Below are positions 61,597-63,435 of a stretch of 64,000 nucleotides of DNA, piece after piece. Numbering within the stretch: the stretch's first letter is position 1; the number at the start of each line of letters is the position of its first letter. Source of the stretch: an uncultured bacterium. Its GTDB lineage: Bacteria > Chloroflexota > Anaerolineae > J036 > Brachytrichaceae. The DNA lies in assembly GCA_903873965.1 (NCBI GenBank), contig CAIQQO010000347.1:113786-177785 (forward strand). The letters run 5' to 3'. The position numbers were made by a program, and so were the translations under genes. The notes below the pieces were generated by a model. The model was not told the DNA's origin. It searched no databases and worked only from the letters and a program-made list of their open reading frames with translations.

Positions 61597-63435
61597 ATGG
61601 AAGTGATCGTTAGGCCGGCTGTCCTCGATGACGTCGCGCGTATCTCGGAGTTGATTGCTGGGAATGCGCGCAAAGGTGGGCTATTGCCGCGCAGCACGGC
61701 CAACATCCGCGCTTCGCTGAAGAATATGCTGGTGGCTGTACTGACCGGGCAGGAGGCGGCAGAATCGCCGCTGGTGGTTGGGTGTGGCTCGTTGGTGCCA
61801 ATGAGCACTGCGTTGGTTGAGCTGCGCTCGCTGGCCGTGGATGAGACGCTGCGCGGCGGCGGGGTGGGGCAGAAACTGGTGAATGCGCTGGTCGCGGAGG
61901 CGCGCGAGCGCAAATTCAGCACGATCTTCGCCCTCACGCGCGCGATGCGTTTCTTCGAGAAGTGCGGTTTTACGGTGACCTCCAAGGAGAACTTTCCAGA
62001 GAAGGTATTTCGCGACTGTGTGTCATGTCCCATGCTGTTGAACTGTGATGAAGTGGCCATGTCCATTGAATTGGCATCGGAAGCGATTATTGTCCCGGCG
62101 CGCATGCCGGCATTGGGCAATCGCGAGAAGCAAATCCCGGTTGAGGCTGTGCAGTACATGATGGAGACCGAAGGCGCGCGCGGCGTGAACATCGTGCGCG
62201 AGCCTGTGAACAAGGTTGTGCTGGCATACAGCGGTGGCCTGGATACGGCGTGCGCCGTGCCGTGGTTGCGCGAGAACTATGGCTGCGAAGTGGTGTGCTT
62301 CGTGGCAGACGTGGGGCAGGGCTGGAACTTCGAGGCGATCAAACAGCGGGCGTTGCGCTCCGGCGCGAGCAAATGCATCGTGCGCGATCTGCGCAACGAG
62401 TTCTCGGTGGAGTATTGCTATCCGCTGGTGCAGAGCGGTGCGATCTACGAGAACAAGTATTTGCTGGGCGCAAGCATCGTGCGGCCGTTAATGGCTAAGC
62501 ATCAGGTGGAGATAGCCAACCAGGAGAATGCCGATGCCGTCTCGCATGCAGCGACGGGCAAAGGCAATGACCAGGTGCGCTTCGAACTGACTTACATGGC
62601 GTTGAACCCCCGGCTACGCATCATCGCGCCGTGGCGTGAATGGAATCTACGCGGGCGCGACGACGCGATCGCGTATGCGCAGGCGCACAATGTGCCAGTG
62701 AGTCAGACTTTAGGCAGCATTTATTCCGGCGATCACAGCCTGTGGCACCGCAGTTTCGAGGGCGGCAGCCTGGAGGATCCGTGGCGCGAACCGGGCGAAG
62801 AACTGTATCGGCAGACGATCTCGCCGTTGGAAGCGCCCGATGCGCCGGAATACGTGGAGATTGATTTCGTGTGCGGCATCCCGAAGCGGGTTAACGGCAT
62901 TGCTCTCGGCGGAGCCGACCTGATCGTGGCGTTGAACACGATGGGCGCGCGGCATGGCGTGGGGCGCTACGACCTGGTTGAGAACAGGCTGGTGGGGATG
63001 AAATCGCACAGCGTGTACGAGGCGCCCGGCGCTACCATTCTGCGCGCGGCGCACCAGGGGATCGAGGAATTGACGCTCAACCGCGAGACGCTGCATTACA
63101 AGCAGATCGTGGCGTTGAAGTACGCCGACCTGTTGTATGGCGGGCAATGGTTCACGCCGTTGCGCGACGCGATCCAGGCGTTTATCACGGTGACGCAACG
63201 CGATGTCACCGGCACAGGGCGGATCAAGCTGTACAAGGGCAGCGCGACGCTTGTGGGTCGGCAGGCAGCTTACTCGCTCTACCGCGAGGATCTGGCGACG
63301 TTTAACGCCGAGGACGTGTACAACCAGAAGGATGCCGAGGGCTTTATCCGGTTATACGGGCTACCGATGTACGTGAAGGCGCAGGTGGATTTATCGCGGG
63401 CAGCCACGTTGGCGTCAGTGGATGCGAAGTACTGA
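61597..63435 (+). CDS. argG: GNAT (N-acetylglutamate synthase-like) fused to argininosuccinate synthase
   Basis: Residues about 1-159 (from ATG 61597) are a GNAT domain of the short N-acetylglutamate synthase type. The acetyl-CoA loop is LRSLAVDETLRGGGVGQKLV, followed by MRFFEKCGF and the Cys-rich end FRDCVSCPMLLNCDEVAM. The same segments occur in the ArgA domain of ArgH(A) fusions. After a linker of about 45 residues an argininosuccinate synthase of about 405 residues follows, with AYSGGLDTACAVPWL, GKGNDQVRFELTY and SIYSGDHSLWHRS. This part is of the shorter type, unlike the neighbouring ArgG. A GTG at 61585 would add 4 residues. Confidence 0.9.
   Translation: MEVIVRPAVLDDVARISELIAGNARKGGLLPRSTANIRASLKNMLVAVLTGQEAAESPLVVGCGSLVPMSTALVELRSLAVDETLRGGGVGQKLVNALVAEARERKFSTIFALTRAMRFFEKCGFTVTSKENFPEKVFRDCVSCPMLLNCDEVAMSIELASEAIIVPARMPALGNREKQIPVEAVQYMMETEGARGVNIVREPVNKVVLAYSGGLDTACAVPWLRENYGCEVVCFVADVGQGWNFEAIKQRALRSGASKCIVRDLRNEFSVEYCYPLVQSGAIYENKYLLGASIVRPLMAKHQVEIANQENADAVSHAATGKGNDQVRFELTYMALNPRLRIIAPWREWNLRGRDDAIAYAQAHNVPVSQTLGSIYSGDHSLWHRSFEGGSLEDPWREPGEELYRQTISPLEAPDAPEYVEIDFVCGIPKRVNGIALGGADLIVALNTMGARHGVGRYDLVENRLVGMKSHSVYEAPGATILRAAHQGIEELTLNRETLHYKQIVALKYADLLYGGQWFTPLRDAIQAFITVTQRDVTGTGRIKLYKGSATLVGRQAAYSLYREDLATFNAEDVYNQKDAEGFIRLYGLPMYVKAQVDLSRAATLASVDAKY

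Follow-up and report, generated by a model that had tools for sequence, protein, structure and literature searches.

Introduction

The closest described relative of the gene considered here is ArgH(A), or H-NAGS, of Moritella and the Alteromonas-Vibrio group (PMC1382215, PMC4490483; all papers are cited here from the portions of their text that were available), in which a short GNAT domain of the N-acetylglutamate synthase (NAGS) type is joined to a late arginine enzyme within an arg operon. Classical NAGS (ArgA; e.g., N. gonorrhoeae 2r8v and 3d2p) likewise combines a GNAT domain with a second fold of the arginine pathway, an ArgB-like kinase domain reported to mediate arginine control (PMC4490483), and the short NAGS of M. 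tuberculosis (S-NAGS, Rv2747; PDB 5yge, 5yo2 and 6add), whose reported Km for glutamate is very high and which has been suggested to work with partner proteins (PMC4490483, PMC3827942), stands alone. The subject of this text is another such arrangement, a short NAGS-type GNAT domain encoded in one frame with argininosuccinate synthase (ArgG), found at positions 61597..63435 of a 64,000-nucleotide stretch (hereafter, the window; positions 113,786 to 177,785 of contig CAIQQO010000347.1, assembly GCA_903873965.1) from an uncultured Chloroflexota bacterium (Anaerolineae; Brachytrichaceae).

The fusion differs from ArgH(A) in that the partner is ArgG and not ArgH, in that its GNAT domain is N-terminal instead of C-terminal, and in that the family of the window's genome (hereafter f1; f33 and f35 are other Chloroflexota families, and g-numbers denote genera) has a second, free ArgG as well as altered active-site residues in the fused one. 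Unlike Rv2747, its GNAT is fused to ArgG and carries a conserved CxxC-x5-CDE segment, whereas, compared with classical NAGS, the extra domain is ArgG-derived and arginine control, known there, is a candidate property here. A literature search among open-licence PMC papers found no description of a GNAT-ArgG fusion in the text available (PMC4490483, PMC1382215, PMC3827942, PMC9026213 and PMC7311316 included).

The fusion and its GNAT half

The open reading frame (ORF) of the fusion, which lies on the forward strand like all the features given below, runs without interruption from an ATG at 61597 to a stop at 63433-63435 and encodes 612 amino acids (aa). The continuity claimed for it in a preliminary description, made from the letters alone, is thereby borne out, and the 616 residues given there are obtained if counting begins at an upstream GTG (61585), an alternative start. 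A split of the fusion in related genomes owing to a sequencing error had been named there as one finding that would undo the idea; such an artefact (a missed stop or a frameshift) is rejected, since the identical fused frame was present in all 24 f1 genomes of a first set of 40 and since, wherever dN/dS was computable in 19 within-genus pairs, it lay well below 1 for GNAT, linker and ArgG. The protein consists of the GNAT domain (residues 1-159; 61597..62073), a linker (residues 160-203; 62074..62205) with a predicted local distance difference test score (pLDDT) below 50 at residues 162-199, and the ArgG domain (residues 204-612; 62206..63432).

The GNAT half matches PF00583 with 46.4 bits and keeps all 16 signature residues checked, and the folds nearest to it are N-acetylglutamate synthases. 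Its unfused relatives are located after argD in arg operons, often before argG, and the fusion's GNAT is, as expected of a short NAGS, a single GNAT resembling the C-terminal domain of ArgA and encoded among arg genes. Context and fold thus support the earlier assignment to a short ArgA-type GNAT, and the half is a predicted maker of N-acetylglutamate. With the short NAGS model NF005840 (PRK07757), the fused protein scores 142.9 bits, under the curated cut-off of 154, and two unfused operon relatives exceed it (155.6 and 187.9 bits). The match to the ArgH(A)/H-NAGS model NF008964 is limited to the GNAT part (107.3 bits vs. 657), with no lyase domain recognized, and the score with the classical NAGS model TIGR01890 is 45.7 bits vs. 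a cut-off of 202.85, which no protein exceeded in any of the 40 genomes, all of them searched. Within the CxxC-x5-CDE segment (fusion residues 141-152), C141 and C144 were present in 234/234 aligned GNATs and C150 in 233; the segment might be a metal site.

Altered active site of the fused ArgG half and a second ArgG

At the family level, the other half is plainly an ArgG (residues 204-598; TIGR00032, 449.6 bits vs. 268.2; NF001770, 564.1 vs. 334), and its closest solved structures are true ArgGs. Its active site was judged by a core set of 17 residues, comprising human citrulline/aspartate contacts and substitution-sensitive ATP contacts (PMC13289927), that were transferred via an alignment to human 2nz2; the available text of PMC10360398 agrees with seven of these contacts. 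Six further ATP contacts of PMC13289927 (A10, Y11, L15, A36, Q40 and I98) were left out of the set: among 85 f1 proteins, Y11 is replaced by F in 8 and I98 by M or L in 7, the other four being unchanged, and A10, A36 and I98 vary also among other ArgGs.

At least one of the 17 core residues is changed in 66 of the 85 f1 proteins and at least three are in 33; by genome (the 85-protein and 24-genome sets overlap), at least one change, and up to six, is seen in 23/24 and at least three in 13/24, which sets the fused half apart from argininosuccinate synthases such as those of T. thermophilus (1j1z) and human (2nz2). Elsewhere, none of 203 proteins was altered, i.e., 81/81 other ArgGs (in one of which, L019, four of the 17 sites could not be read) and 122/122 Promineifilum-type fusions, and the f33 and f35 fusions have all 17 residues intact. 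The changes differ between genera: S12N/T, T17S and S180T, mostly with S189N and Y282D, recur in g3, g6 and g7; E270Q, a substitution reported to inactivate the human enzyme (PMC13289927), occurs with Y282V in three g2 genomes; and G117A, at a site where human G117S is reported to leave little to no activity (PMC13289927), is found in 5/5 g1 and 3/3 g8 genomes, the window's own included. The window copy keeps 16 of the 17 residues, the exception being this G117A, and carries S18A, T91A, N184S and G280S (human numbering) outside the core set, so that Ala replaces the Ser at the end of its P-loop (S18A) and the Gly of its second ATP motif (G117A). The earlier statement that both domains keep their signature motifs therefore stands for the GNAT half but not for the ArgG half.

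All 28 f1 genomes have a second ArgG of the E. coli type, usually encoded directly beside the fusion gene; in the window, it lies at 60162..61565 (467 aa; NF003779, 808.4 bits vs. 657; E-value to 1k92, 8.1e-211). In a sample of the phylum, such an ArgG occurs in only 21 of 301 genomes, six of them f1. The window's free ArgG has all the core residues but for Thr in place of Ser189, as in E. coli, and across the 24 of the 28 f1 genomes that the core check covered, this S189T is the sole core change, present in 22/22 full-length copies; two copies truncated at contig ends are otherwise unchanged as far as they extend. A single ArgG above the cut-off was found in 12 genomes outside f1 (1 fused and 11 unfused; one of the 12 has two further matches far below the cut-off), and one ArgG was found in the f33 and f35 fusion genomes.

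Over 19 within-genus pairs, omega was 0.012-0.141 for the ArgG half and 0.077-0.472 for the linker; where computable, it was 0.048-0.171 for the GNAT half (18 pairs) and 0.034-0.107 for the second ArgG (14 pairs), all of these values being rough, as many dS exceed 1. By these estimates, the ArgG half is under strong purifying selection, at a level close to that of the free ArgG, and its low omega indicates that it is kept and not eroding.

A linker motif and the tail of the free ArgG

The linker of the window protein contains REKQIPVEAV (residues 176-185; 62122..62151), a candidate docking motif of the form R-E-x-x-I-P-(L/V)-x-x-V that is present in 21 of the 28 f1 genomes (g1, g3, g6, g7 and g8). 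The C-terminal tail of the neighbouring free ArgG (61470..61562), which ends in DLEG, is a candidate docking peptide: a DLEG or DLDG ending of this protein accompanies the motif in 20 of the 21 genomes that have it (the exception being G015), and such an ending is missing from all six complete tails of the seven motif-less genomes and from all 14 ArgGs of the E. coli type compared from the rest of the phylum. Of the 85 f1 proteins, 29 contain the strict form of the motif and 38 a relaxed form, as opposed to 0/122 Promineifilum-type fusions. The free ArgG of most genera may thus dock via its tail on the linker of the fusion, a suggestion that comes from this co-occurrence.

Spread and origin of the fusions

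Further GNAT-ArgG fusions, which the preliminary description had proposed looking for in databases, exist throughout f1 and in other Chloroflexota. Judged by length, the GNAT part is present in 207 of the proteins formed by the 209 listed matches (two listings, best 120 each) and the query; the remaining three are shorter entries, at least one of them probably a late start call. Among 160 genomes of the class, at least 13 have a one-frame fusion (f1, 9/9; g40 of f33, 3/3; f35, 1/1; other f33 genera, 0/5), the four outside f1 having been checked individually. Named members include Thermoflexales, ‘Candidatus Roseilinea’, Promineifilum and other Anaerolineae.

Where the two genes are unfused, the operon reads argC-argB-argD-GNAT, in many cases with argG, argJ and argH next (the identity of argD and argH was checked). 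Eight first-set genomes have the GNAT gene beside argG, as do 12 of 17 later-fetched loci (gaps of at most 452 bases; one of these loci, L175, was already in the first set), and in G032 the separate GNAT and argG genes, the latter placed by its ArgG match, lie 22 bases apart with argH next. The ArgG tree unites f1 in a single clade (SH-aLRT 100) and places the fusions of f35 and of the Promineifilum type in another (99), to which unfused f33 members also belong; the GNAT tree likewise sets f1 apart from the remaining fusions, at lower support (81 and 88). A single origin of all the fusions is rejected (AU test, p 0.0005; quick ArgG tree), with the caveat of a long f1 stem. Taken together, the adjacent unfused genes, the trees and the AU test argue that the fusion of neighbouring operon genes is an event that took place separately and more than once. 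One f1 member, G007 (loci L100 and L162), sits on a long branch in both trees and has its fused gene on a different contig from its argC-argB-argG group.

At 6816-9365 of locus L163 (genome G069), an uninterrupted 849-aa ArgB-GNAT-ArgG frame was seen, the GTG of which overlaps the argC stop. A triple fusion is not claimed: a 96% identical relative, P0214, is 599 aa long and lacks ArgB, and none of the 89 proteins listed as matches to this frame holds all three domain kinds.

The arg cluster of the window

The single-strand cluster of the window consists of argC (57832..58890; TIGR01850, 363 bits vs. a cut-off of 233.6), a GNAT-ArgB fusion (58891..60114), the E. coli-type argG and, last, the GNAT-ArgG fusion. 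The GNAT-ArgB frame begins one base past the argC stop, the next two spacers measure 47 and 31 bases, and no terminator-like site was found between the free argG and the GNAT-ArgG fusion. In f1, the fusion gene lies in an arg cluster in most genomes. The window's own genome, which is 75% complete, contains ArgJ and ornithine carbamoyltransferase, and no match above the cut-off was found in it for argH.

The GNAT-ArgB protein combines an N-terminal GNAT (PF00583, residues 49-133) with acetylglutamate kinase (TIGR00761 argB, 201.3 bits, residues 158-387), the reverse of the kinase-first order of the known NAGS and NAGS/K; its GNAT is of a different kind (just 32.6 bits to NF005840; nearest solved structures, 8iym and ysnE), and the fusion recurs in 12 of 24 f1 genomes, one further copy being cut at a contig end. 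Other arg-gene fusions are suggested by the Pfam strings of listed proteins (P0243-P0291), namely PF00696+PF00202 (kinase/aminotransferase), PF00696+PF01960 (kinase/ArgJ), PF00764+PF00206 (ArgG/lyase) and PF00696+PF01316+PF00764, in which we take PF01316 to be the arginine repressor.

Upstream of argC, a sigma-70-like promoter-like site with full consensus (57622-57649; 12 of 12) is followed by a terminator-like hairpin of 12 pairs (57782-57811), so that the arg cluster is possibly controlled by an attenuator or through its leader; sites of these two kinds are not enriched in the window (3 promoter-like vs. 3.3 expected and 4 terminator-like vs. 5.7 expected from shuffles), and the argC leader matched no Rfam family above the threshold. 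Still further upstream lie two tandem short ORFs (56839-57228 and 57233-57613) that, by eye, resemble copies of each other.

For two proteins, P0087 (430 aa) and P0090 (420 aa), the database entries are listed with the ArgG part alone, and the window protein has Met codons late in its linker, which together make it conceivable that the ArgG half may also be translated separately from an internal start.

Discussion

The presence of a second ArgG, the changed core of the fused one, the kept GNAT signature and the purifying selection on the ArgG half together lead us to infer, with a confidence no better than even, that in f1 this half is a partner or control domain for NAGS more than it is the main ArgG of the cell. 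In such a scheme, the second ArgG would have taken over argininosuccinate synthesis, and the fused ArgG fold, released from catalysis and no longer carrying the main flux, would have been retained as a support for the short NAGS, i.e., as an oligomer scaffold, in a role comparable to that of the ArgB-like kinase domain of classical NAGS; its altered pocket could sense arginine or ATP/aspartate/citrulline, and, in most genera, the free ArgG could dock with its DLEG tail onto the linker motif. One solved ArgG entry, 4xfj, names AMPPNP and arginine as ligands in its title, which suggests that an ArgG is able to bind arginine. A bolder version, which we consider unlikely, would see ArgG refashioned as the half of NAGS responsible for allostery and docking, a second, independent invention of the trick of classical NAGS with its ArgB-derived control domain; its pocket would sense arginine or argininosuccinate and the DLEG tail of the free ArgG would be held in the linker, uniting the first and penultimate enzymes of the pathway in one regulated complex.

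Several observations weigh against a partner or control role. No core change is present in 19 of the 85 f1 proteins and only one in 33, S180T and T17S are mild changes, and the fused ArgG of G007, uniquely among the 24 genomes, keeps all 17 core residues despite a second ArgG. In the window copy, with its 16 of 17 residues, the combination of G117A with S18A, N184S and G280S may reduce activity but leave part of it, and low omega is equally compatible with an active enzyme whose kinetics or substrate have changed. Regarding the GNAT half, all the fused forms scanned fall under the NF005840 cut-off (142.9, 141.1, 139.0 and 137.6 bits), and ArgJ is present in 20 of 24 f1 genomes, so that the NAGS step is perhaps a mere top-up. 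Regarding docking, the linker motif is strict in only 29 of the 85 f1 proteins (38 if relaxed), and its pairing with the tail comes down to two or three coupled changes along the tree, G015 being an exception, which makes it a lead and not proof.

The preliminary description had envisaged a simple bifunctional enzyme joining the first and the penultimate steps of arginine synthesis. A true bifunctional enzyme, with the GNAT making N-acetylglutamate, the ArgG half making argininosuccinate and the two ArgGs being isoenzymes that differ in kinetics or regulation, is a tentative alternative for f1, possible though on the improbable side: the near-complete core of the window copy and the strong purifying selection speak for it, as do the f33 and f35 fusions, which, to judge from their 17 intact residues and the one ArgG found beside them, fit such a reading better than f1 does; within f1, it does not sit well with at least three core changes in 13 of 24 genomes (E270Q in three genomes and Y282D/V among them) or with a free E. 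coli-type ArgG in every genome, its core standard wherever checked, and in its simple form we do not find it supported for this family. Would the recurrent set of substitutions in g3, g6 and g7, combined with low omega, rather point to a fused ArgG with changed chemistry, acting on another amino acid or nucleophile, with glutamate or a related compound being acetylated by the GNAT? Proteins of ArgG-like fold that catalyse other reactions do exist (e.g., nitrile synthetase, 9lei/9leh), but the altered residues differ by genus (the ATP-site G117A in g1 and g8; E270Q and Y282V in three g2 genomes), the nearest solved structures are true ArgGs, and the gene resides among arg genes in most of the family, so that we deem this improbable. 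Slightly more improbable still is co-expression only, whereby a stop between operon neighbours would have been lost with no coupling of the products and the drift of ArgG would be a by-product of redundancy; the adjacency of GNAT and argG in unfused relatives and the separate origins of the fusions accord with it, but a redundant half should erode or vanish, whereas this one is kept in 24/24 genomes, under a constraint similar to that on the free ArgG.

Database entries of the fusion, where named, are mostly called just argininosuccinate synthase, and pathway reconstructions relying on such names could miss a NAGS step while crediting an altered ArgG. As to the biology of the phylum, Chloroflexota have tied a short NAGS to ArgG more than once, and in f1 the ArgG half appears to leave catalysis while being strictly kept. 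Whether NAGS recruits arginine enzymes as control domains is a question made testable by this collection of lineages, some having the fusion as their one ArgG, some having a second ArgG besides it, and some keeping the two genes as unfused neighbours.
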